From NCBI GenBank assembly GCA_022782265.1, contig JALFOM010000148.1, positions 1 through 64,000 of the forward strand: a stretch of DNA of 64,000 nt. The letters run 5' to 3'. Under the pieces are notes generated by a model. It saw only the letters and a list, made by a program, of their open reading frames with translations. It was not told the DNA's origin and made no database searches. A program made the position numbers and the translations under genes. Origin of the DNA: Clostridiales bacterium (GTDB lineage: Bacteria; Bacillota; Clostridia; Oscillospirales; Oscillospiraceae). Each line of letters opens with the position of its first letter. Position 1 is the first letter of the stretch. This document shows, piece after piece, positions 4,269 through 31,632 of the stretch.

Positions 4269-4296
4269 TTTTAGCGGTATTCCCTATGAATGTCAA
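4268..4296 (-). promoter_or_regulatory. SigA-type promoter of the MarR/ABC exporter operon
   Basis: On the minus strand TTGACA (4291-4296) is followed after 17 bases by TAAAAT (4268-4273). The palindromic operator begins at the start site. Confidence 0.8.
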
Positions 4297-4331
4297 TATA
4301 CAAACGGTAAAAAATCTCCGGGCCGCTCAAG

Positions 4332-4360
4332 TTGACAAGAGGCGAATCATCTGCTAACAT
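4332..4360 (+). promoter_or_regulatory. SigA-type promoter of the sugar isomerase gene
   Basis: TTGACA (4332-4337), 17-base spacer, TAACAT (4355-4360), with a GGGAGGCGG ribosome-binding site before the ATG at 4399. Confidence 0.7.
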
Positions 4361-4398
4361 GTCCTCTTAACGAAGTTTCTTTACCGGGAGGCGGAATA

Positions 4399-5187
4399 AT
4401 GATCTCTTTTGGAATGCCCACGCTGATCGAACTGAACAGCCTTGAGGAGAGCGCGGCGCTGTGCCGGGAGCTGGGACTGAAGTTTATTGAACTGAACATG
4501 AGCTTCCCCCAGAACCAGCTGGAGAAGCTGGATGCGGATGAGCTGCTGCGGATAAAGGAGCGGTACGGCATTTTCTATACCGTGCATCTGGATGAGGAGC
4601 TGAACCCCTGCAGTCTGAACTCCGGGGTCAGACAGGCCTATGTGGAAAATGTGCTGGGCGTGGTGGAGCTGGCAAAAAAGCTGGGCATTCCCACCCTGAA
4701 TATGCACATGCTCCGGGGCATCTACTGCACCCTGCCTACAAAGCGGGTGTTTATCTATGAGGAAAACGAGCCGGTCTACCTGGAATACCTCCGGCAATTC
4801 CGCGACCGGGTGACGGAGGCCATCGGGGACAGCGGCGTGAAGATCTGCGTGGAAAACACCGACGGCTTTGACCTGCCCTTCCTGCTCCACGGGCTGGACC
4901 TGCTTCTGGAGAGCCCCGCCTTTGCCATGACCTATGATATCGGCCATGACTATGCCATAAACTGCGCCGACAAACCCATCATCATGGAGCGGGAAGAGCA
5001 TCTGATGCATATGCACATGCATGACGCTCTGGGGACCAAGGTACACTTGGCCCTGGGCGATGGGGAGATGGACCTGGAGAGCTACCTCCGCCTTGCGGCG
5101 GAGCATGACTGCCGGGTGGTGCTGGAGACCAAGACCGTGGCGGCTCTGCGGCAGTCCGCCCGCTGGCTGTATGGAAGAATCGTATGA
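4399..5187 (+). CDS. Sugar phosphate isomerase/epimerase, TIM barrel
   Basis: A 262-aa protein of the xylose-isomerase-like/AP endonuclease 2 TIM-barrel family. Metal-binding positions of that fold are visible as acidic and His residues in CVENTDG, YDIGHD, MHMHDALG and VLETKT, in the expected order along the second half of the barrel. Such proteins isomerise or epimerise sugars or inositols, or act as endonuclease IV; the short MHMHD motif and lack of endonuclease IV signatures favour a sugar substrate. It is a single gene with its own promoter and a strong terminator. The specific substrate is unknown. Confidence 0.8.
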   Translation: MISFGMPTLIELNSLEESAALCRELGLKFIELNMSFPQNQLEKLDADELLRIKERYGIFYTVHLDEELNPCSLNSGVRQAYVENVLGVVELAKKLGIPTLNMHMLRGIYCTLPTKRVFIYEENEPVYLEYLRQFRDRVTEAIGDSGVKICVENTDGFDLPFLLHGLDLLLESPAFAMTYDIGHDYAINCADKPIIMEREEHLMHMHMHDALGTKVHLALGDGEMDLESYLRLAAEHDCRVVLETKTVAALRQSARWLYGRIV

Positions 5188-5205
5188 GCGCTTGATGCAG
5201 ACCGA

Positions 5206-5250
5206 TAAAAAACACCCTCTCACGAAATGCTCGTGAGAGGGTGTTTTTTA
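5206..5250. terminator. Strong bidirectional terminator
   Basis: A 19-bp perfect stem, AAAAAACACCCTCTCACGA with its complement, with a 5-base loop and T-runs on both strands. It ends the isomerase gene on the plus strand and acpP on the minus strand. Confidence 0.92.
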
Positions 5251-5256
5251 CTTTGA

Positions 5257-5484
5257 TTACTGAAGCTTTTCCACGTAATCCACGATACGCTGGACAGTGA
5301 CAAGGTTTGCGGCTTCCTCATCGGAAATGGAGACGCCGAATTCGTCTTCAATGGACATGATGAGCTCGACAACGTCAAGAGAGTCTGCGCCCAGATCGTC
5401 AATCAGGTTGGTGTCCAGGGTGATAGTGTCGGGGCTGACTTCAAACTGCTCGGCCAGAGCTTTTTGTACTTTTTCAAAAATCAT
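5257..5484 (-). CDS. acpP: Acyl carrier protein
   Basis: A 75-aa acidic acyl carrier protein. The phosphopantetheine attachment Ser is in GADSLDVVEL near residue 36, and the length is normal. It carries growing acyl chains during fatty acid synthesis in the cytoplasm. It lies 52 bases downstream of jag in the same direction and ends at a shared terminator, so it is probably cotranscribed with the ribosome/insertase cluster. No fatty-acid synthesis genes are nearby, so it may be a second ACP or a relocated acpP. Confidence 0.93.
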   Translation of the reverse strand: MIFEKVQKALAEQFEVSPDTITLDTNLIDDLGADSLDVVELIMSIEDEFGVSISDEEAANLVTVQRIVDYVEKLQ

Positions 5485-5536
5485 TGTTCATTCCTCCGAT
5501 GTGCACAGCACATAAAGTATTTTTTCGGCTGCCTTA

Positions 5537-14759: not shown

Positions 14760-17036
<2,277 letters not shown>

Positions 17037-17081
17037 ACAGGTATACCGGGGCGGCTTGCGCAGCCTGGGAGCCTGTAGACA

Positions 17082-17120
17082 AACCCGCTGTTGGTTCAAG
17101 CCGACAGCGGGTTGGGTTGT
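17082..17120 (+). terminator. Terminator after clpC-like gene
   Basis: AACCCGCTGT-(12-base loop)-ACAGCGGGTT stem followed by GGGTTGTTAT. The stem is strong and the T-run weak. The 140 bases beyond it hold no recognised feature. Confidence 0.6.
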
Positions 17121-17261
17121 TATACTGTTTTTGCGAGTGGGCGTTGTCTGCACATTGAAGCGAACGGCACACAGAACGATTGCGGCAGACAGGCACAAAA
17201 GGTAACTGAACAACCGGGAGACGCGGTGGGACGAGGTTTTTGGCGCCTGCTGCCTCCAGGC

Positions 17262-17825
17262 TTATTCCAGATTTGCGTGCCGGGCAAATGGCGCATTTTT
17301 GTCAAGCCCCAGTTCATCCACGATGGCAGCAATGACGCTGTCAAGCAGGATCAGGAGGCTTTGTTCAAAACGGCCTCCACCGGGTTGGATGGACTTGCCG
17401 ATTCCGCCAGCAGCCGCCGTTCGGCCGGGAATCTTTATGATGATATCAGCCTGGCACCCGATAAGTGAGTCGGGGACTATGGTGAGGAAGGCAATCTCCG
17501 CGCCGCAGTTCTTTGCGAGCTGTGCAACGGCGGAAATGGTAGTGAGCCCGCCTGCGCCATCTGCAAGGATCAAAAGATCCCCAGGGTTTATGCAGGGGGA
17601 GGTCGTGTCGCCTACAACGTGGGCCTTGAAATCCAGATGCATGAGCCGCATGCAGAATGCCCGCAGCATGTACTGGCAACGCCCGGCACCGCATACAAAG
17701 ATCTGACGGTCTTTTCTGCGCATGATTCCATCAAACAGCGAGCGCACCTGATCTTCCTTTACGCCCGCGAGCGTAGAGCGCAGTTCGTCACACACCGCGA
17801 GAGAAAAATCCTTGATGTTATTCAT
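17262..17825 (-). CDS. SIS-domain isomerase, 6-phospho-3-hexuloisomerase-like
   Basis: A 187-aa SIS-domain protein related to HxlB, which interconverts 3-hexulose-6-phosphate and fructose-6-phosphate. The sugar-phosphate loop is near IFVCGAGRCQYMLRAF; HxlB proteins usually have GxGRS there, so Cys replaces Ser, a notable change in the phosphate-binding site. The C-terminal GRFEQSLLILLD helix fits the family. It is the last gene of the TRAP/aldolase/kinase operon, 26 bases after dctM, suggesting that it handles the sugar phosphate the pathway produces. Confidence 0.75.
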   Translation of the reverse strand: MNNIKDFSLAVCDELRSTLAGVKEDQVRSLFDGIMRRKDRQIFVCGAGRCQYMLRAFCMRLMHLDFKAHVVGDTTSPCINPGDLLILADGAGGLTTISAVAQLAKNCGAEIAFLTIVPDSLIGCQADIIIKIPGRTAAAGGIGKSIQPGGGRFEQSLLILLDSVIAAIVDELGLDKNAPFARHANLE

Positions 17826-17851
17826 TCATACCACCTTCGCCCCCGAGCGCC

Positions 17852-19138
17852 TTACCCCATGATCATATTGGGGATTACCGTAATAAGCGACGGGATATAT
17901 GTTATCATCAAAAGAACCCCAATCATCAGCAACGACATGGGAAGAACCTCGCGGAACACCGACTGCAGGTTTTCTTTTGCAATTCCCGCGGAAATGAAGC
18001 ACATCATGCCAAACGGAGGTGTTACCGCGCCGATCATCATGTTGACTGTAAGAACGACACCGAGATGTATCATATCTATCCCGAGAGAGCGTGCTATCGG
18101 GATAATCAGCGGCAGAAAAACGAATTCCAGCACATTTGTGTCAAACAGCATCCCGAGCAGCAGAAACATTATGTTGAGAATCAGCAGGAAAATGTACTTA
18201 TTGCTTGTAAAGTTCAGGAACCAGTTGGTGATGACTTTTCCCATGCCGGAGGAAGTCGCCACATAGGAAAGCAGATACGCGCCAATAACGATGGAAAATA
18301 CCTTTCCCGTCTGTATGACGGTGTCTTTTATTACTCGACCCAGTCCCTTGAGCGTCAGCACACGGTAAGCGAAAAAGGAGATCAGAATAGTGTACAGCGC
18401 GGCAAGCGCACCGGCCTCGGTGGCTGTGACGATTCCGGTGTATATTCCGCCCAGAAGGATTACCGGTGTCAGTAGTGCGGGGATAGCCCGCAGCGTGTAA
18501 ATACAAAACTCTCTCACTGAAAATTTTACGCCGGCAGGGTAGTCCCTTTTGCGTGATACGAATCCCACATATATGCCCAGAAGCACGCAGATCAGAACGG
18601 CGGGAATCATGCCGCCCAGAAACAGCTTGCCGACGGAAACCTGCGCCATCATTGCAAAGATTACCATCGGTATACTCGGCGGAAAGATCGGACCGACCGT
18701 TGCCGTGGCGGCGGTTATTGCTGCACTGAACGGCATGTCATAGCCGTCCTTGCGCATCTCTTCAATTTCTATTACGCCGAGACCTGCCGCGTCAGCGGCG
18801 GCAGACCCTGTCATGCCGGAAAAGATCAGGGAGATGATGATATTCAAGTGCGCCAGAGCGCCCTTTTTCTTGCCCAGAATGGCCTTGACAAAAGTGAACA
18901 GGTATTCTGTCACTTTCCCTGAACACATAATATTTGCCGTGAAAATAAACAGGGGAATGGCAATCATCACGCTGCTGGCGTAAAGCTGGCTCATGACGAT
19001 GTCGGACACAACGCCGAGATCTACGCCTGCAACCAAAAAGTACGCCGCGCAGGAAATGATCATTCCAAGCCCTATGGGCATTCTTATTATAAAGCAGAAA
19101 AGCAGAATAATCAATGGAAGGAATATTGCTCCGTTCAT
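17852..19138 (-). CDS. dctM: TRAP transporter large permease (DctM)
   Basis: A 428-aa integral membrane protein with about twelve helices and TRAP large-subunit motifs such as FSGMTGSAAADAAGLGVIEI and TPPFGMMCF. It is the sodium-coupled transport subunit that pairs with DctQ and receives ligand from the DctP binding protein. It overlaps dctQ by four bases. Base composition is visibly less GC-rich than in flanking genes. Confidence 0.94.
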   Translation of the reverse strand: MNGAIFLPLIILLFCFIIRMPIGLGMIISCAAYFLVAGVDLGVVSDIVMSQLYASSVMIAIPLFIFTANIMCSGKVTEYLFTFVKAILGKKKGALAHLNIIISLIFSGMTGSAAADAAGLGVIEIEEMRKDGYDMPFSAAITAATATVGPIFPPSIPMVIFAMMAQVSVGKLFLGGMIPAVLICVLLGIYVGFVSRKRDYPAGVKFSVREFCIYTLRAIPALLTPVILLGGIYTGIVTATEAGALAALYTILISFFAYRVLTLKGLGRVIKDTVIQTGKVFSIVIGAYLLSYVATSSGMGKVITNWFLNFTSNKYIFLLILNIMFLLLGMLFDTNVLEFVFLPLIIPIARSLGIDMIHLGVVLTVNMMIGAVTPPFGMMCFISAGIAKENLQSVFREVLPMSLLMIGVLLMITYIPSLITVIPNMIMG

Positions 19139-19638
19139 TTTTTCCCCACCTTCCCAACAGAAAACAGCGCCGCCGTGTCTTTAAGCAGCAGGAAAAAGTG
19201 GTGAGCTGCCGTCAGAATGAGGTAGACGATAAATGGCGCATATATTACATTGAACGGTATCTTCATCAGCGATGATTTCTTTATCGCGAGAAAACTGACG
19301 GATTTTACCGCATGCGGAAGGATGATGACCATGAATAAAACGATAATGCCGTTTCCAACCATTCTCAGGACGCGTCTGCCCCTCTCCGGAAGCTTGTCAT
19401 ACAGTATTGTAAACATAATGTGATCGTCTAACCTGCTATGATAGGAAGCGGCAAGAACTACGGTCCATACGAAAGCAATCATGCTCAGTTCGTATATTTC
19501 GTTTACCTGTGCGTTGAAAATATAGCGGTACAGAATCATGATTACATAGGATATAAACAGCACAACAAATGCACAGCAAGGCAGATATATTTCAAAAAAA
19601 TCAGACATTTTCTGATACACGCTGTCGATTTTTTTCAT
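19135..19638 (-). CDS. dctQ: TRAP transporter small permease (DctQ)
   Basis: A 167-aa protein with four membrane helices and the DctQ pattern WTVVLAASYHSRLDDHIMF. It stabilises the large permease and mediates contact with the binding protein. The gene stands between dctP and dctM, in the usual P-Q-M order. Confidence 0.92.
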   Translation of the reverse strand: MKKIDSVYQKMSDFFEIYLPCCAFVVLFISYVIMILYRYIFNAQVNEIYELSMIAFVWTVVLAASYHSRLDDHIMFTILYDKLPERGRRVLRMVGNGIIVLFMVIILPHAVKSVSFLAIKKSSLMKIPFNVIYAPFIVYLILTAAHHFFLLLKDTAALFSVGKVGKK

Positions 19639-19727
19639 TTTTAACCATCCTTTTCAGCCTGCAAGAGAGATAATGGAACGCGGCGCGATCAGTAGATAAC
19701 CGCGCCGACGTATTCCTCCTTTGCGTA

Positions 19728-20807
19728 TTAGTAATCGAGATTCGCTATAGCGTTGTACAGTTCCATATCCAACCCGGAAACCCAGTCTGTCTGCGCGAAG
19801 TAGTAGTCCGAAACCTCCTTGCGGTAAGCAGCGAGCTCTTCATCGCTCAAATAGTAGACAGTAATTCCGTTATCTTCCAGGAAAGCCACATCCGAAGCCT
19901 CCTGGTCGATTGTCGTCTGAGAGATATACTCACAGGCCTGCCTTACGCCCTCGGATAGAATCTCCTGAAGCTCTGGGCTCAAGCTCTGCCATACCTTCTC
20001 GCTTATTGTCACAACGCCGGCACTTATCATATGCCCGGTGACAGTAACACTCTTCGTAACCTCGTACCAGCTGAAGGAAATCGTTGTGGAAAAGCCGTTG
20101 TCCTGTCCGTCCACGGCGCCGGTCTGCAGCGCGGTGTAGAGCTCGGATGCGCCGAGCGGAACAGGGTTTGCACCCAAGGCCAAACCCATATTCTGCCAGG
20201 CTTCGCTGCTCGGCATACGGATGCTCACGCCATCCAAATCGCTTCTGCTGGTGACCTTTATGTCCTTGTTGAGGTTAACGCAGCGCACGCCTTTATAGTA
20301 AACGGAGTCGAATACTCTTATTCCGGTCGTCTCCGCCACTTCATCCATAAGAGATGTCGCTTCATCGGAGCTGAAATATGCGTTCATATGATCCCAGTTC
20401 GCAAAGAGATACGGGACATTGAGCACTTCTAATTTGGGCATATAGGGGCTTATCCAGTCAAACCAGCAGGCGTTCATGTCGAGCGTGCCTTTCATGATTG
20501 ACTCGATCTCCAGGTCCTGTGCCATCAGTGAGGAGGCGTAGTAGGTGTCAATTGTAACTGCTCCCCCTGTCGCCTGGGAGACGTATTCCTTCATGATGTC
20601 CATTCCCTGCGCAACAACGCCCCCGTCGGCCTCTGTCATTGAAAAGGTGAGCGTTATCGGCTCAAATTCCGGCTCAACAGCTTTTTCCGTTTCTGCTGTC
20701 TCGTGAGCGGCTGGGGCCTCGGTCTGTGCCGGTGCAGCCGCAGTTCCGCAGGCGGCCAGCATCAAAACGAGCGCGAGAACAAGTGCCAAACTAATCCATT
20801 TTTTCAT
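19728..20807 (-). CDS. dctP: TRAP substrate-binding lipoprotein (DctP)
   Basis: A 359-aa extracytoplasmic solute-binding protein. An N-terminal lipoprotein signal (LVLMLAACGT, lipid on Cys20) is followed by an Ala/Glu-rich linker and the DctP fold. The segment VSIRMPSSEAWQNMGLALGA holds the Arg that in this family pairs with a ligand carboxylate, and ELYTALQTGAVDGQDNG is the conserved downstream motif. The likely ligand is therefore an organic or sugar acid rather than a neutral sugar. Kinase and aldolase genes upstream support a sugar acid. Confidence 0.93.
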   Translation of the reverse strand: MKKWISLALVLALVLMLAACGTAAAPAQTEAPAAHETAETEKAVEPEFEPITLTFSMTEADGGVVAQGMDIMKEYVSQATGGAVTIDTYYASSLMAQDLEIESIMKGTLDMNACWFDWISPYMPKLEVLNVPYLFANWDHMNAYFSSDEATSLMDEVAETTGIRVFDSVYYKGVRCVNLNKDIKVTSRSDLDGVSIRMPSSEAWQNMGLALGANPVPLGASELYTALQTGAVDGQDNGFSTTISFSWYEVTKSVTVTGHMISAGVVTISEKVWQSLSPELQEILSEGVRQACEYISQTTIDQEASDVAFLEDNGITVYYLSDEELAAYRKEVSDYYFAQTDWVSGLDMELYNAIANLDY

Positions 20808-20867
20808 TTTTTTCTCCTTTTCTTTTTCTTTTTTGTTTTTCAGCCTGCCGTAAGCCGGCTGTTGTGC

Positions 20868-21878
20868 CTAATTTTTTCCGGGCTCTGCCGTTATTCTCGC
20901 CCGGCTCCTCATGATCTCTTTTGCGTCTGCCGCTGTGCCCATGCTCAACAGCGAGCCGTGCTTCGTGGTGGAGAATGAAGCGCAGGCGTTGCAGAAATCT
21001 CCGAGTTTCTCAAGCTCCTGATTGCTGAGCGTTTCGATCCTGGCTTCGCTCCTGGCCAGTCCAAATAAGAGCGCCCCCATAAACGAATCCCCGGCGCCGG
21101 TGGTGTCCGCTACCGGCACCTCGTATGCAGGGCTGTAGGCATGGCTGTGACGCGTATAGAGAAAGCTCCCATTTCTTCCCATTGTGACTGCCACGAGCTG
21201 AGCACAGTCGCTCTCAGCAAACACGGCCTCAACGCCGGAGGGGATATCACTCATGCCAAAATAATAGGCCAACTCCTCATCGGTAAACTTCAGCACGCCG
21301 CAAAGCTTTGCACGCTCGATAATCTGTGCTTTTTCCTGCGCGGGAAGCGGGATTCCCCGCCACTGCATGTCGATGGCAAGGGTTATGTCGTTCTCTTTTG
21401 CAAGCCGCAACAACTCCCGCTCTGTCTCCGTTATACAGTCTTCCTGGTCAAACGCGATTGCCTTGATATCGAAAAACCGGCTGTGTTTAAATTTCTCCGT
21501 GTCAACATTCTCCAGCTTCGTCTGAGCCTCATTGCGCGGGCATCTGTAGTCGTCATAGTATCTGTCGTTGTTTCCGTCGCGGTATTCGAACATAAATCTT
21601 GTTGGGAGCGTCCCGAAGGTGACGCAGGAGGTATCCAGCCCCAGCTCCAATGCCGTATTATACAGATATCTGCTGTGCACATCGTTTCCGAGCGTAGTTA
21701 CCAACATGCCGGCTCCACCGAGTCTTGCTACCTGACACAGCACATTCGCCATAGAGCCTGCCGGATTGCGGGCGAAAAGCGCGCGCCCACATTCATCTTC
21801 ACCGGCATAGGAGAAGTCTATCATCAGATCTCCCAGTCCTGTTACATCGATATCTTTTGTCATGTTTATCTCACTCAC
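20868..21878 (-). CDS. PfkB-family carbohydrate kinase
   Basis: A sugar kinase of up to 336 aa in the ribokinase/PfkB family. The C-terminal signature with catalytic Asp reads VADTTGAGDSFMGALLFG; the N-terminal pair of Gly motifs is also visible (NPAGSMANVLCQVARLGG). It likely phosphorylates the sugar or sugar acid imported by the TRAP system before aldolase cleavage. The start is uncertain: the track begins at GTG, and an ATG lies five codons in. The upstream junction is a GTGA tetranucleotide repeat with no strong ribosome-binding site, so translation may be coupled to the aldolase. Confidence 0.87.
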   Translation of the reverse strand: MSEINMTKDIDVTGLGDLMIDFSYAGEDECGRALFARNPAGSMANVLCQVARLGGAGMLVTTLGNDVHSRYLYNTALELGLDTSCVTFGTLPTRFMFEYRDGNNDRYYDDYRCPRNEAQTKLENVDTEKFKHSRFFDIKAIAFDQEDCITETERELLRLAKENDITLAIDMQWRGIPLPAQEKAQIIERAKLCGVLKFTDEELAYYFGMSDIPSGVEAVFAESDCAQLVAVTMGRNGSFLYTRHSHAYSPAYEVPVADTTGAGDSFMGALLFGLARSEARIETLSNQELEKLGDFCNACASFSTTKHGSLLSMGTAADAKEIMRSRARITAEPGKN

Positions 21879-21885
21879 TCACTCA
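21870..21885. repeat. Tetranucleotide repeat at aldolase/kinase junction
   Basis: CTCACTCACTCACTCA is four copies of CTCA (TGAG on the coding strand), spanning the aldolase stop and the kinase start region. Slippage here would change spacing or start context of the kinase. Confidence 0.7.
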
Positions 21886-22863
21886 AACTCTGTTGTTGTC
21901 AAGAAATACGCTTATGTGCTTTCGTGCGATATAATCTTCCGCTGCCTTTCTTGCATAGCCCAGGTATTTTCTTGGATCGTAGTGGGAAGGGTGCCTGAGC
22001 ATATATTCTCTGACCGCTTTGGTAAAAACAATTTTGACGTCCAACGCGGAATTCACCTTGCACACGCCGTGCCTGAAGCTCTCCTGAAGCTCGTGCAGGG
22101 AAAAGTTGCAGCACGGTTCCAGCTCCATGCCGAAAGCATTCGCACTTTCAATGAAATCGTTGGAAAGAATCGATGTTGCGTGCAGCACCAAAGGCAGATC
22201 CGGCAGCTCCCCGTGTATCTGGGAAATTTTGCCGACATCCAGCTTCTTGGGGAAGTCGTTTGCCAGGTCGTGCGCATTGCCGCAGCAGATAGCCAGCGAG
22301 TCACAACCGGTGAGACGGGCGTATTCGACCGCTTCCTCAACTCCGGTTTCATATCGTTCAGGTCCCGATACCGGATGGAACACCTCTCCTTCCACAAACA
22401 CACCGTGCTTGTGGGCATATTCGCATACTTCCTTCGTTTTTTGTACGTTCGTCTCGAAATCATCATGCTCGTTGTCAAGCATAACAGAACTGAAGCCCGC
22501 GTCAATGCAGGCCATACACCTTTCGATGCTGTCTCCGTGGTCCAGATGTAAGACAACATCCCTGCCTGCTTCCCTGGCACAGGCCTCTGCCATCTTTCTG
22601 AGCATCTCTGCTCCGGCATAGTCCACGACTCTGCACGAGGCCTGAAGCATAATCGGCGCTCTGACTTTTGCTGCCGCCCTTGCCGAGGCCTGCATGATCT
22701 CCATGTTATAACCGATAAATCCGCCCACGGCCCAGTCTTCATTGATGCAGCTTTTGTAATACCGCTCCGGTGTAATGATCTGTCCCGTTTTTTCTCCCTC
22801 CCTCGTTTCCAGAATAGTTTTCAAGTGCTCTTCCCGGGTGATGTAATTCCTGATTCTGCCCAT
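21883..22863 (-). CDS. Divergent class II (zinc) ketose-bisphosphate aldolase-like protein
   Basis: A 326-aa protein of the fructose/tagatose-bisphosphate aldolase class II family. The first zinc His motif, LHLDHGDS (106-112), is kept, and VEGE (158-161) matches the second acidic site. However, the usual phosphate-binding HGGSG is HATSI (228-232), the usual GTxHG is GNAHD (195-199), and NxxTD near the C-terminus is NSALD. It probably cleaves an unusual sugar or sugar-acid substrate. First gene of the operon, divergent from the LysR gene, four bases before the kinase. Confidence 0.82.
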   Translation of the reverse strand: MGRIRNYITREEHLKTILETREGEKTGQIITPERYYKSCINEDWAVGGFIGYNMEIMQASARAAAKVRAPIMLQASCRVVDYAGAEMLRKMAEACAREAGRDVVLHLDHGDSIERCMACIDAGFSSVMLDNEHDDFETNVQKTKEVCEYAHKHGVFVEGEVFHPVSGPERYETGVEEAVEYARLTGCDSLAICCGNAHDLANDFPKKLDVGKISQIHGELPDLPLVLHATSILSNDFIESANAFGMELEPCCNFSLHELQESFRHGVCKVNSALDVKIVFTKAVREYMLRHPSHYDPRKYLGYARKAAEDYIARKHISVFLDNNRV

Positions 22864-22893
22864 AGAATAGCAAACAAATATGATTTTGTAAAA

Positions 22894-22919
22894 TGCATAT
22901 ATTTTCCTTGATTTATGCA
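22894..22919. promoter_or_regulatory. Candidate LysR-binding inverted repeat
   Basis: TGCATA-(14 bases)-TATGCA lies between the divergent aldolase and LysR genes. Position and spacing suit a LysR-family recognition site controlling the operon and the regulator. Binding is inferred. Confidence 0.55.
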
Positions 22920-22956
22920 GTAAGTGTTATATAATTCAACTGAGGTGAACAAGAAT

Positions 22957-23847
22957 ATGACCCAGTTGGAAATATCCTCTTTTCTTTCAGTTGTCAAATA
23001 TGACAGCATTTCAACCGCGGCAGAGAAGCTGTTCGTCACACAGCCGGCGTTGAGCCGCCGGCTGAACGCGCTGGAAAGAGAACTTGGCTGCCGGCTTTTA
23101 GAGCGCCAGAGAGGCAAGAAAGCCGTACGCCTTACACCGCAGGGAAAGGCATTCATTCCTATCGCCGAACGATACCTTGCCCTTTGGAATGAGGCAAACG
23201 CGATTAAGACTTCCGAGCAAATGCCGGTGTTCACCGTTGTTCTGAACACCAGTATGGGTGCGCATGTGCCGCTTGCAATCAAGGATTTTATCTCCCGGAT
23301 AAGCAACGTGAGGTTTAAACTGCATGTATACCATTCTCTCGAGGCATATCAGTGGATGGAATACGGCATGGCAGACCTGGCTCTGGTGTCCAAGTCGCTG
23401 AGCAACGCAACAATAACTACCCTTCCGGCCTATAAAGAGCGCTTCTGCCTGCTTGCCCGTGGGATGTATCAGGATGTTGAGACGATGCATCCCAAGCAGC
23501 TCGACCTTTCAAAAGAGCTGTTTGTGCCATGGAGCCCCAATTTCTCCGATTGGCACGACTATTGGTTCGGCACGCAGACGACGCCGAAGGCCTTTTGCGA
23601 TAATCCCCCCATTATGAAATATTTCTGGGCGGATGAGCCCCAGTGGTGGTCCATCGTCCCCGCGTCCTTTGCACGCGAACTGCAGGAGGACCCGGCCGTG
23701 AAGACCATAGAGCTGCTTGAAGGCCCCGAGGATCTGATTCTGTACTATCTTGTCTCCACCAGCGGGAGTTCTTATTTGTCTTCGGTTTTCCTGGAAGCTT
23801 TGGTCAAGCGGGCCCAGGAGATTCCGGGAGTAACGCCCTATATTTGA
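22957..23847 (+). CDS. LysR-family transcriptional regulator
   Basis: A 296-aa LysR regulator with an N-terminal helix-turn-helix (YDSISTAAEKLFVTQPALSRRLNALERELG) and a C-terminal ligand-binding domain. The start at MTQLEI is preceded by GAGGTGA; the ORF-track start lies upstream. It is divergent from the aldolase/kinase/TRAP/SIS operon and most likely senses the imported compound or an intermediate. Its cognate inverted repeat lies in the shared intergenic region. Confidence 0.92.
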   Translation: MTQLEISSFLSVVKYDSISTAAEKLFVTQPALSRRLNALERELGCRLLERQRGKKAVRLTPQGKAFIPIAERYLALWNEANAIKTSEQMPVFTVVLNTSMGAHVPLAIKDFISRISNVRFKLHVYHSLEAYQWMEYGMADLALVSKSLSNATITTLPAYKERFCLLARGMYQDVETMHPKQLDLSKELFVPWSPNFSDWHDYWFGTQTTPKAFCDNPPIMKYFWADEPQWWSIVPASFARELQEDPAVKTIELLEGPEDLILYYLVSTSGSSYLSSVFLEALVKRAQEIPGVTPYI

Positions 23848-23867
23848 GCACCGCTCAGCGGCCTAAG

Positions 23868-23921
23868 CAGAGAAAGGGAAGTTTCGCACAGATCATTTCG
23901 TACTGTTTTTCTCTGCGAAAG
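23868..23921 (+). terminator. Large hairpin after LysR gene
   Basis: GCAGAGAAA and TTTCTCTGC arms enclose a 36-base loop. This is a possible terminator region for the LysR gene; the signal is weak. Confidence 0.35.
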
Positions 23922-23989
23922 CCTTTTCCGCGAGGGAGTTGGAACGTTTACGCAGGCAGGTTTTTCTTAAACTTATTTTAGCAATTCAC

Positions 23990-24066: not shown

Positions 24067-24181
24067 ACTTTTCAATTTCGATGGGCGCGCTTGATGGCCC
24101 GTCTTGCTTTTAGATCACAATTTAACAGCATGAATTGAACCACCGCAAAATTCTGAAAGAATGGAGGTGTGTTTGCTTACT

Positions 24182-25732
24182 ATGCCCTGGTATTTTTGGA
24201 TCATTATCGTGGCTGTGATCATCGCAGTTGCTGCCGCGTGCTTCGCCCTTGGCATCTACTACCGCAAAAAGATCGCGGAAAGAGAGATAATCAGCGCCGA
24301 GGAAGAGGCAAAGCGTATTATCAATGAGTCAATAAAAAGCGCAGAGAGCAAGAAGAGAGAAGCTCTCGTCGAGGCAAAGGAAGAAATACACAAAAGCCGC
24401 TCCGAGTATGAGCGGGAAGTAAAGGAACGCCGTGCGGACCTGCAGAAGCAGGAACGCCGCCTTCAGCAGAAGGAAGAAAACCTTGACCGGAAGATCGATT
24501 CCGTCGAGAAGAAGAGCGACACACTGAACAACAAGATCGCCGCTGTGGAAGCGCAGCAGCAGGAAGTTGCTCTGGTGAAGAAAAGCCAGCTGGAAATGCT
24601 GGAGAAGATCTCCGGCTTCTCCGTGGAGGAGGCCAAGACCTACCTGATCAACAACATCCGTGACGATGTGACCCACGAGATGGCCATGAAGATCAAGGAG
24701 ATCGAGACCCAGTACAAGGAAGAAGCGGAGGAGAAGGCGAGAGAGATCATCGCCACCGCCATCCAGCGCTGTGCCGCCGACCACGCAAGCGAAATCACCG
24801 TCTCCGTCGTACCCCTCCCCAACGACGAGATGAAGGGCCGCATCATCGGCCGCGAAGGCCGCAACATCCGCAGCATCGAGACTCTGACCGGCTGCGACCT
24901 GATTATTGACGACACCCCCGAGACCATCACCGTCTCCAGCTTTGACCCTGTCCGCCGCGAGGTGGCCCGCATCGCTCTGGAGAAGCTGATCCAGGACGGC
25001 CGCATCCACCCCGCCCGCATCGAGGAAATGGTAGCCAAGGCCCAGAAAGAGGTCAACGCCACCATCAAGGCCGAGGGCGAGCGCGCCGTGTTCGAGACCA
25101 ATATCCACGGCCTGAACCCGGAGCTGATCAAGCTCCTGGGCCGCATGAGATACCGCACCAGCTACGGCCAGAACGTGCTGAACCACTCCATCGAGGTCTC
25201 CCATATCGCGGGCCTGCTGGCCTCCGAGCTGGGCGTGGATGTGAACACCGCCAAACGCGCAGGTCTCCTCCACGATATCGGCAAGGCCATCGACCACGAG
25301 GTGGAGGGCAGCCATGTCACCATCGGCGTGGACCTGGCCCGCAAGTACAGGGAGTCTGAGGCCGTTATCCACGCCATCGAGGCCCACCACGGCGACGTGG
25401 AGCCCCACACCGTGGTTGCCTGCCTGGTCCAGGCGGCGGACGCCATCTCCGCCTCCCGCCCCGGCGCAAGACGCGAGAACATCGAAAACTATGTCAAGCG
25501 TCTGGAAAAGCTGGAGGAGGTCTCCAAGAGCTTCCCCGGCATCGCCAGCTCCTACGCCATCCAGGCCGGCCGCGAGATCCGCATCATGGTCAAGCCCGAG
25601 GAGGTCAACGAGGATCAGATGGTCCTGCTGGCCAGGGATATCGCCAAGAAGATCGAAGAAGAGCTGACTTACCCCGGTCAGATCAAGGTCCATCTTCTCC
25701 GCGAGACCAAGGCTGTGGACTACGCAAAGTAA
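24182..25732 (+). CDS. rny: Ribonuclease Y
   Basis: A 516-aa membrane-anchored endoribonuclease that starts mRNA decay. Order of parts: an N-terminal helix ([19 protein letters not shown]), a long charged coiled coil to ~residue 190, a KH domain ([19 protein letters not shown]) and an HD domain with the metal pair HDIG ([13 protein letters not shown]) near residue 360. I take the ATG at MPWYFW as start; the track's ATG overlaps the Shine-Dalgarno GGAGGTG. Length is typical. It is a single gene with its own promoter and terminator. Confidence 0.95.
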
Positions 25733-28815: not shown

Positions 28816-28930
28816 CACAGCGGACTGTTCCCGCTGCACGGGCAGGTTTTCTGACTTCGGGGGCTTTCGTAAACGCCCCGCTTCACAGTGACGGCCTCGC
28901 GTGGGATTCACACCCACATTCCCCTGTTAA
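28815..28930 (-). ncRNA. Cobalamin (B12) riboswitch aptamer
   Basis: Minus strand carries the conserved elements in order: GGTGTGAATCCCACGCGAGG, GCCGTCACTGTGA, then GAAGTCAGAAAACCTGCC (the B12 box), followed by a CAGCGG-(7)-CCGCTG hairpin that can make the kissing-loop arm. It precedes the DUF4430 and ECF S-component genes and would switch them off when cobalamin is plentiful. Confidence 0.93.
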
Positions 28931-28932
28931 CT

Positions 28933-28961
28933 ATTATAAAAAATAGATCCCGATCCGTTAA
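28933..28961 (-). promoter_or_regulatory. Promoter of the B12 riboswitch transcript
   Basis: Minus strand TATAAT (28933-28938), with TTAACG 17 bases upstream. Transcription would start a few bases before the aptamer. The remaining ~200 bases up to the next gene terminator hold no recognised feature. Confidence 0.6.
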
Positions 28962-29171
28962 TTTAGTAAACACTGAATAAATCGTCTGCGGCGTCTCACG
29001 GTAAATTTGCGCCCTGATTTCGTCACTTTTTCTTGAAATACACAAAGTATTCCTGCGAAAAAGTGCCATCATCAGAACACAAATTTTCTCGCGATCCGCT
29101 CTTGCCGATTGATTCATCGTTTACTTTGCTTGCGAAGAGAGAGTATACCATATTATTTACTTCTTTTCAAG

Positions 29172-29209: not shown

Positions 29210-30214
29210 TTATGCTCTTTCGTATAGATCCGCGCAGACGGTGCGGTACATGCGGTTGACGATGAAGGCCATCAAAAACAGGATCACCGACATGGCGCTG
29301 TAGCAGATCAGATACATATTGCCGAAACGCTGCACCAGATACTCGAAAACGCCGGTGCCGGCCACGGTCAGGAAGAAGCCTACCCACATGACCCAGTGGT
29401 AGCCGTGACGGCCGTTGGCTTTCACGGAGCGGACGCTGTAAACGATGAAAACCACCAGAATGATCACGGCGCAGAGGATCTGGGTCAGGCTGATGAAGCC
29501 GTTGAAGGGCAGGTAGCTGGAGTCGTAGCGGGTGCTGTCCAGCACCACCTCCACGGCGTCGTAGTACACAAGGAACATCAGGGCCACATGGCCGTCTCTG
29601 GGGTAATCGTTTTTCATGGGATAGCGGCGGCGGCGGAAGAAAAAGCGCATCAGGATCCAGAACAGCACCAGCATCACCAGAAACTGGATGAAGAAGGTGG
29701 CAAAGCGGTATTCGGTGCCGCCGTTTGCGGTGGGGATGCCGGAGGCCAGGGGCAGGTGCTGCAGCAGCGGCGTGTTGACCACGATCTTGCTGCGGCAGGA
29801 GGTGTTGAACAGGGCGCTGAGCCGGATAAAGGCGATGCACAGCGCGGCGCCGGGGGCCAGACAGTCAAACAGGCGGCCAAGATTCTGGGTAAAGCCCAAC
29901 TTCTTTACCAGCAGCCCCGCCAGCATGGTGCCGAAAATGGCGCCGTGGAGGAAATAGTCCCCCTGGGAGTAGTCCAGCATGGCGCTCATAAAGCCGGCGT
30001 ACTGCTCGTCATGGCAGTACCAGTGGATCAGACGGGCAAGGACCACGGAGAAAAACAGCGCCAGGGGCAGCAGCAGCCAGAGGGCGGAGCCCCGCCCGCC
30101 GTGGGAGGTATACAGGGCGTAGGTCAGGGCAAAGCAGGCGGCGATACCCAGAAAGATGATCACGGAGCTCCAATAGATAAAGGTGTCTCCGATGCAGACA
30201 GCGATCTGATTCAT
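29210..30214 (-). CDS. Lgt-family (prolipoprotein diacylglyceryl transferase-like) membrane protein
   Basis: A 334-aa protein with about eight helices that resembles Lgt in layout: DYFLHGAIFGTMLAG and LAPGAALCIAFIRLSALFN lie where Lgt has its substrate-binding His and Gly-Arg motifs. The canonical GRxGNFxNxE signature is altered, so it may transfer a different lipid or lack Lgt activity. Its start overlaps the stop of the phosphodiester glycosidase gene (ATGA), and with the serine hydrolase it forms a three-gene envelope operon. Confidence 0.7.
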   Translation of the reverse strand: MNQIAVCIGDTFIYWSSVIIFLGIAACFALTYALYTSHGGRGSALWLLLPLALFFSVVLARLIHWYCHDEQYAGFMSAMLDYSQGDYFLHGAIFGTMLAGLLVKKLGFTQNLGRLFDCLAPGAALCIAFIRLSALFNTSCRSKIVVNTPLLQHLPLASGIPTANGGTEYRFATFFIQFLVMLVLFWILMRFFFRRRRYPMKNDYPRDGHVALMFLVYYDAVEVVLDSTRYDSSYLPFNGFISLTQILCAVIILVVFIVYSVRSVKANGRHGYHWVMWVGFFLTVAGTGVFEYLVQRFGNMYLICYSAMSVILFLMAFIVNRMYRTVCADLYERA

Positions 30215-31632
30215 GAGGACGCCTCCTCTCCCGGAATGGCCGTGGCAAAGTAGATGATATCGGTCATAATGCGCTCGTTGCCCCAGTCAGGGCGGTTGAA
30301 GGTCTCCCCGTTCATCACGATGGTGGCGGTCTGGCCTCCGTCCAGGGCATAGGCGTTGGGCACACCCTTGGCGTAGATCAGATCGGCCGCCTGATTGATG
30401 GTGACCCGGTTTTTGTACACGCCCTCCTCGTTGATGGACATCAGCAGGTAATGCAGCTTGTCCACCTGGCCGATGGCGGCGCGGGAATAATGGATATCCA
30501 CCTCGCCCACCAGATAGGTGTTGGTGGTCTTTTTCTCCCCGTTTTCCACTAAAATGGGGCCGAAGGAGACGGAGAAAACAATGTCGTTATCCTGAACGAA
30601 CTTTTTCACTTCGTCCTCGGTGTTCAGCTCTCCCACATGGGTGAAGATCATGTCGCCGGAGGCGGTGAAGAAGCAGCTCTCCAGACTTCTGGGGTTGAAG
30701 CGGTAAAGCTGCCGCTGATAGATGGTGATGCCGCAGGAGCGGTGGCCGTAGAAGTCGCCGTTAATGGCCACCACAGCGTTGGCGTTCTGGGCCATCTGGG
30801 TGGGGTACATGTAGACGCTGGAGCCGTAGGTGTTATCCGACAGCGCCCGGCGCAGCTGGGAGCCGTGGGCGATCTTCACCTCCACAAAGGAGCAAGCGGA
30901 GTTGTTGATGGCCTCCTTCCAGGCGATCACCAGGATGGTCTCGTCGCAGTAGTACTCGATCTCCGAGCCCTCCATCAGCACGATATCCGGGTTCCAGATC
31001 AGCTCCTGCCCCTCCAGCAGCTCAGCAGCGGAGTCCACCACGGCCTGTACCACCGCGGGGTCGGTGGTGGAGCCGAATTTGCTCTGGTCGGGCTTGGGGG
31101 CCACAAGGTCGCTCTCGGGGATGGTGTAGATCTTTTTGATATAGGCCACGTTTTCCAGCGCGTCGCTGGCGGAGTTGTTCATAAACACGTCCAGCTTGCC
31201 CACCAGGTCCAGCCGGTTCTCCGTGGTGCTGCCGGTGTTGGTGCCGGTGCCCGGGTGGACGTTCACCAGCGCCCAGACCAGGGCAAGAATGGAGAGGACG
31301 ATCAAAATCAGATAGCCAAAGGAAAAAGCGGGGCGGACAGGGGTGGCCTCCCGGGGCGGCTGGGGCCTGGACCGGGCGTCCCGCTCTTTCGGCCGCTCCG
31401 GCGCCTGCCGGGCTTCCCGGCGGGGCGCAGGCTGGGGCGCACGCTCCTTAGACCGCTCTGTACGCGGCTCCGGCCGGCTCTCCCGCCGGGGGCTGCGCTC
31501 CTGTGCGGCGGGGGCGGCGCTCTCCCTGCGCCGGGACGGGGCGCTTTCCGCGGCCCGGGTCTCCTGCTCCTGCTGCTCCGAAAATTCCCGAAGGATGGCG
31601 TCAATATCCGCGTCGCTGATTCTGTTGCTCAT
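30211..31632 (-). CDS. Membrane-anchored phosphodiester glycosidase (NAGPA domain)
   Basis: A 473-aa protein: an Arg/Pro/Glu-rich disordered N-terminus (~100 aa), one membrane helix (FGYLILIVLSILALVWALVNV) and an outside NAGPA/phosphodiester glycosidase domain with VAINGDFYG and NAYALDGGQTATIV. Such enzymes remove sugar from phosphodiester-linked glycans, for example in cell-wall or teichoic-acid-like polymers. Operon neighbours (serine hydrolase, Lgt-like protein) place it in envelope maintenance. Confidence 0.85.
   Translation of the reverse strand: MSNRISDADIDAILREFSEQQEQETRAAESAPSRRRESAAPAAQERSPRRESRPEPRTERSKERAPQPAPRREARQAPERPKERDARSRPQPPREATPVRPAFSFGYLILIVLSILALVWALVNVHPGTGTNTGSTTENRLDLVGKLDVFMNNSASDALENVAYIKKIYTIPESDLVAPKPDQSKFGSTTDPAVVQAVVDSAAELLEGQELIWNPDIVLMEGSEIEYYCDETILVIAWKEAINNSACSFVEVKIAHGSQLRRALSDNTYGSSVYMYPTQMAQNANAVVAINGDFYGHRSCGITIYQRQLYRFNPRSLESCFFTASGDMIFTHVGELNTEDEVKKFVQDNDIVFSVSFGPILVENGEKKTTNTYLVGEVDIHYSRAAIGQVDKLHYLLMSINEEGVYKNRVTINQAADLIYAKGVPNAYALDGGQTATIVMNGETFNRPDWGNERIMTDIIYFATAIPGEEASS

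Follow-up and report, generated by a model that had tools for sequence, protein, structure and literature searches.

A rare inserted island between clpC and rny in a bacterium of the Clostridia carries an aldolase and a SIS isomerase altered at their phosphate-binding motifs, a candidate for sugar-acid catabolism

Results

The DNA between clpC and rny in the window, the whole stretch of 64,000 nucleotides that was analyzed, is an inserted island that was horizontally acquired; it is real, very rare and apparently catabolic. Two core enzymes of the island, an aldolase and a SIS isomerase, have both lost the phosphate-binding motifs of their families, and this paired loss is the stronger point, beyond what an earlier note on this DNA had recorded. 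We consider the chances nearly even that the two proteins form an undescribed couple without phosphate binding, which would define an undescribed catabolic pathway for sugar acids; such a pathway would pass from one clostridial genome to another, its transporter and kinase being interchangeable.

The interval at 17262-23847, between clpC (14760-17036) and rny (24161-25732), comprises seven genes: one for a LysR-family regulator and a divergent operon of six, all on the minus strand and separated by gaps of -4 to 89 bp. In the order of transcription, the operon encodes an FBA-family class II aldolase (326 aa, 21883-22863; Pfam F_bP_aldolase, 2.3e-64), a PfkB-family sugar kinase (336 aa, 20868-21878; PfkB, 7.4e-34) with its catalytic GAGD motif intact at 261, the TRAP binding protein DctP (359 aa, 19728-20807; DctP, 3.5e-59) with a lipoprotein-like start, the small permease DctQ (167 aa, 19135-19638; DctQ, 4.1e-19), the large permease DctM (428 aa, 17852-19138; DctM, 5.7e-94) and an HxlB-like SIS isomerase (187 aa, 17262-17825; SIS, 1.2e-6). 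The regulator gene lies on the plus strand (22924-23847; HTH_1, 1.1e-18), and on inspection its true start is probably the ATG at 22957. These genes and their positions are as the earlier note had given them, and their domain assignments are secure. The divergent promoter region of the aldolase and LysR genes was assigned to 22864-22956 by position only; promoter-like hexamers are present there on both strands, in numbers no higher than in shuffled sequences. Terminator-like sites in the region are as frequent as in shuffles. By far the longest stem, of 14 bp, belongs to a hairpin at 17082-17113 between the 3' ends of clpC and the SIS gene, a possible shared terminator.

The island status, which the earlier note had proposed, is supported by a sister genome in which the site is precisely empty, together with lower GC and absence from relatives. 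Positions 17055 and 23962, which bound the island (17056-23961), are only 33 bp apart in the sister genome G708, versus 6,906 bp in the window, in a spacer that is otherwise conserved. Both flanks match this same genome, with 88.7% identity over 5 kb on the clpC side and 95.2% over 1.8 kb on the rny side (rny itself is 99% identical), which argues against misassembly; the source genome is a MAG that is 82% complete and 4% contaminated. The left junction is inside the terminator hairpin of clpC, the left arm of which is readable in the window and the right arm of which is gone. The GC content, estimated by eye to be lower than that of the flanks, was computed at 51.1%, compared to a mean of 58.5% (standard deviation 1.5%) on the rest of the contig, and none of 239 equal-size segments elsewhere on the contig is as low. 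The dinucleotide deviation of the island is unremarkable. No integrase gene was found in the island, no tRNA near it and no convincing terminal repeat at its ends. In another relative (G724), the same clpC-rny spacer holds about 1.2 kb of different sequence (L026, about 4290-5516). The spacer has therefore perhaps been hit more than once, and insertion there may recur within the genus.

The rarity of the island was assessed through its aldolase, with the ortholog threshold set above the scores of ordinary FBA (236 bits at most). The search covered 60 genomes of the same genus, 300 of the family, 398 of the phylum and 244 others from the order of the single relative described here, and returned no ortholog. 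This relative, a rumen Clostridiales MAG (uncultured Clostridiales RUG291; L003), was the one match in a collection of 85,462 species scanned with six exact 8-residue patterns, which can miss diverged orthologs. Its contig, too short to cover the rest of the cluster, carries a divergent PfkB gene, followed by genes for the aldolase, the SIS protein, a xylose-isomerase-like TIM barrel and DctP. The aldolase and the SIS protein are 64% and 62% identical to those of the window, while the partial kinase and the partial DctP are 36% and about 26% identical. The clusters have in common the side-by-side orthologs of aldolase and SIS, a divergent PfkB and a TRAP DctP; they differ in the extra ketose-epimerase-like TIM barrel of L003, in its unrelated type of DctP and in the gene order. 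Thus the aldolase and the SIS isomerase, judged from two orthologs of each, are the conserved core, and the transporter and kinase are exchangeable. The TIM barrel (L003:2196-3035) has fructoselysine 3-epimerase as its best named relative (107 bits, far below the cut-off), and the island in the window has no equivalent of it.

No close relative of DctP was found in 378 other genomes of the phylum, and no match to the aldolase alignment in viral contigs. Plasmid matches to the aldolase and SIS orthologs were all ordinary FBA and HxlB. With the SIS protein as query, 340 further genomes of the class gave one HxlB (G1300), which has the normal phosphate motif and was set aside; its gene (L034) adjoins an ORF that resembles, by eye, a DUF89/ARMT1-type protein.

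Thirty-four class II aldolases served as controls in an alignment with the island enzyme; most of them were the closest to it that were found in 200 genomes of the phylum. Residues D108, H109, E158, E160, H198, H228, S231 and N271 are identical in the island aldolase and in the 34 controls; with D108, H109, H198, H228 and E158/E160, the metal ligands and catalytic Asp of class II FBA are present. The DHAP end is changed at four positions. Position 199 is Asp (Gly in 34 of the 34 controls), 229 is Ala (Gly in all 34), 273 is Ala (Asp in 33) and 274 is Leu (Ser or Thr in all 34), which alters the motifs GTSHG, HG and N-x-D-(S/T) to GNAHD, HA and NSAL, respectively. Positions 50, 78, 162 and 196, fixed or nearly fixed in the controls, are also changed. 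The DHAP-end positions are presumably those that hold the phosphate in the FBA structures of E. coli (1B57) and Giardia (2ISW). Several of the DHAP-phosphate contacts in FBA are made by backbone amides, and substitutions need not abolish these. The four DHAP-end changes are common to both orthologs, in the window and in L003, which suggests selection rather than decay. On the aldehyde side, S76 and R298 are kept, and position 277 remains basic (Lys for Arg). As the grip on the donor phosphate is lost and the basic residues on the other side are kept, the donor half-reaction probably uses no phosphate, and the products expected from the enzyme are a donor without phosphate and an anionic aldehyde. 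Position 273 matches Asp288 of the E. coli enzyme, a residue that has been linked to catalysis with FBP and with F6P (PMC5434028). Because this counterpart is Ala in the island aldolase, the bond that is cleaved could be a different one, and the reaction may depart from a simple retro-aldol.

The island aldolase shares with the class II FBA of Thermus, Giardia and Helicobacter the fold, the metal ligands, the catalytic Asp and about 30-38% identity, and differs from them at each of the changed positions given above. It scores 221 and 202.8 bits against the NCBIfam FBA equivalog cut-offs of 511 and 343, and a separate, ordinary FBA is encoded elsewhere in the same genome (L002). The AlphaFold model, built from a two-row alignment (pLDDT 73.5), confirms the fold with moderate confidence; the altered loop (196-206), with values below 50, is modeled too weakly to be read for geometry.

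The SIS isomerase passes the cut-off of NCBIfam RuMP_HxlB (174.7 versus 160 bits). The phosphate motif, GRS plus SGSG(E/R/K/T)T, is found in all HxlB controls and in every one of the solved relatives YckF, MJ1247, AF1796 and the bifunctional HxlAB. In the SIS proteins of both the window and L003 it is replaced by GRC and DGAG(G/Y)L (C50 and D89-G-A91-G-G93-L94 in the window). The corresponding Ser/Thr residues in GlmS and other SIS proteins bind the sugar phosphate. E154 and H183, which we take to be the catalytic pair, are retained in both orthologs. The island SIS thus resembles the RuMP HxlB proteins YckF and MJ1247 in its fold, in the catalytic Glu and His and in 39-41% identity, whereas all Ser/Thr of the phosphate motif are replaced and the HxlA partner is missing. 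The best HxlA match in the genome, as recovered in the 82% complete MAG, reaches 32 bits versus a cut-off of 200, and there is hence no RuMP context. An HxlB-type enzyme that has lost its phosphate grip would act on an unphosphorylated sugar, and the SIS step probably uses no phosphate. The AlphaFold model (pLDDT 71.7, two-row alignment) confirms the fold with moderate confidence.

The loss of family phosphate-holding residues in both enzymes goes against the earlier assignment of these proteins to sugar-phosphate chemistry. As the defining feature of FBP aldolase and that of 6-phospho-3-hexuloisomerase were looked for and not found, neither function is assignable, and both names are probably wrong. 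From the retained catalytic residues, aldolase-like and isomerase-like action of the two proteins is likely.

The transporter is of the DctP type, with P, Q and M subunits. R197 of DctP aligns with Arg-147 of SiaP, which holds the ligand carboxylate, and the carboxylate-contacting Arg noted previously is therefore present. This Arg is found in 98% of DctP proteins (PMC4646407), so R197 points to a carboxylate and not to which one. Among PDB entries, DctP is most closely related to 4pf6 (179 bits, about 35% identity), followed by sialate-binding SiaP proteins. Plasmid homologs of DctP were considered as pointers to the substrate; the closest are 30-37% identical, are located beside shikimate/quinate or DHDPS-family genes, and were rejected as too distant. 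Fructoselysine 6-kinase is among the weak matches of the PfkB kinase, far below the curated cut-offs.

Discussion

We tentatively propose, at somewhat less than even probability, that the island, acquired horizontally, is an operon under the control of its regulator that serves to break down a carboxylated keto-sugar; this sugar would be isomerized, phosphorylated at its far end and cleaved. DctPQM would import the sugar acid, with Arg197 on its carboxylate. The SIS isomerase would move the carbonyl of the unphosphorylated substrate, for example from a 3-keto to a 2-keto acid, and the PfkB kinase would then phosphorylate the far hydroxyl. Cleavage by the aldolase would give, instead of DHAP, a C3 acid without phosphate, along with a phosphorylated aldehyde; for a substrate of six carbons, this aldehyde would be a triose phosphate. 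The TRAP importer suggests a carboxylate, and if this is at the near end of the substrate, the C3 donor would be hydroxypyruvate or pyruvate. Placement of the kinase between the SIS isomerase and the aldolase makes the order of the three steps consistent; the kinase could also act at the other end of the substrate, or last. Hydroxypyruvate could be sent into glycolysis by a housekeeping hydroxyacid dehydrogenase and glycerate kinase. A glycerate kinase gene adjoins one for a D-2-hydroxyacid dehydrogenase in the same genome, and the two may be ordinary housekeeping. LysR would sense the substrate or an intermediate. The import, phosphorylation and cleavage or isomerization of a sugar acid envisaged in the earlier note fits the catabolic look of the island for an acidic sugar and needs revision at the isomerase step and the donor half of the aldolase step, which are probably free of phosphate.

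The lost phosphate binding in both enzymes is also compatible with a route, which we regard as unlikely, in which cleavage by the aldolase is the opening step and the substrate is a free 3-deoxy-ulosonate, such as Kdo. The products would be pyruvate and D-arabinose; the SIS protein would convert the latter to D-ribulose, and PfkB would form ribulose phosphate for the pentose phosphate pathway. SIS-fold arabinose-5-phosphate isomerase is indeed among the SIS fold matches, and 4pf6, the closest structure to DctP ahead of the sialate-binding proteins, is one that we take to be Kdo-bound. The DctP evidence is weak at this level of identity, at which relatives also stand beside shikimate/quinate genes, and the basic residues kept on the aldehyde side of the aldolase would be left unexplained.

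In layout, the island resembles sulfo-EMP2, in which the isomerase SqvD, the PfkB-type kinase SqiK and the FBA-family class II aldolase SqiA open an acid-bearing sugar (PMC12890257). The island differs from it in having a SIS-type isomerase rather than the SqvD type, a TRAP importer and a changed DHAP-phosphate site in the aldolase, and neither a sulfolactaldehyde dehydrogenase or reductase nor a sulfoquinovosidase was found in it. An analogous EMP-like route for a hexuronate would have the same order of isomerase, kinase and class II aldolase: SIS would form the keto-uronate, PfkB would phosphorylate C1, and the aldolase would give DHAP and tartronate semialdehyde. TRAP importers for hexuronates exist (PMC7660916). 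This route is rather improbable, as the DHAP-phosphate site that it needs is the very one that is changed, and the SIS site that would take the carboxylate has acquired an Asp rather than a basic residue.

The introduced Asp residues would have a role if the substrate were an Amadori compound (a fructosamino acid), the amine of which they could hold, with the kinase and aldolase opening the sugar part. The TIM barrel of L003, nearest to fructoselysine 3-epimerase, and the fructoselysine 6-kinase among the kinase matches are in line with this; all such matches are far below curated cut-offs, and the island has no FrlB/FraB-type deglycase, which makes the idea very unlikely. A chance grouping of ordinary copies of FBP aldolase, RuMP hexuloisomerase and fructokinase would explain the HxlB score of the SIS protein and is highly improbable, given the motif losses in both enzymes, the aldolase scores under the FBA cut-offs (such as 202.8 versus 343), the separate ordinary FBA and the lack of an HxlA above cut-off.

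No described pathway with this gene set was found in the open-access literature, which is not proof of absence and agrees with the earlier note, whose author recognized none. Automatic annotation as an FBP aldolase and a RuMP hexuloisomerase would predict the wrong chemistry. Should the proposed carboxylated keto-sugar route hold, it would give anaerobes a new means of opening a sugar acid, and would offer a natural example in which two enzymes for phosphorylated sugars were jointly adapted to substrates that lack phosphate. The aldolase and SIS proteins are small and presumably soluble, and their reaction is thus directly testable.

Additional features of the window

Elsewhere in the window, a cobalamin riboswitch aptamer is located at 28824-28968 on the minus strand (43.4 bits versus a gathering score of 31.5), and a protein with a phosphodiester glycosidase (NAGPA) domain is encoded at 30211-31632, also on the minus strand. 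Two ORFs on another contig of the same genome (C15; L051, 2381-3517 and 4663-5778) resemble this NAGPA-domain protein by eye.
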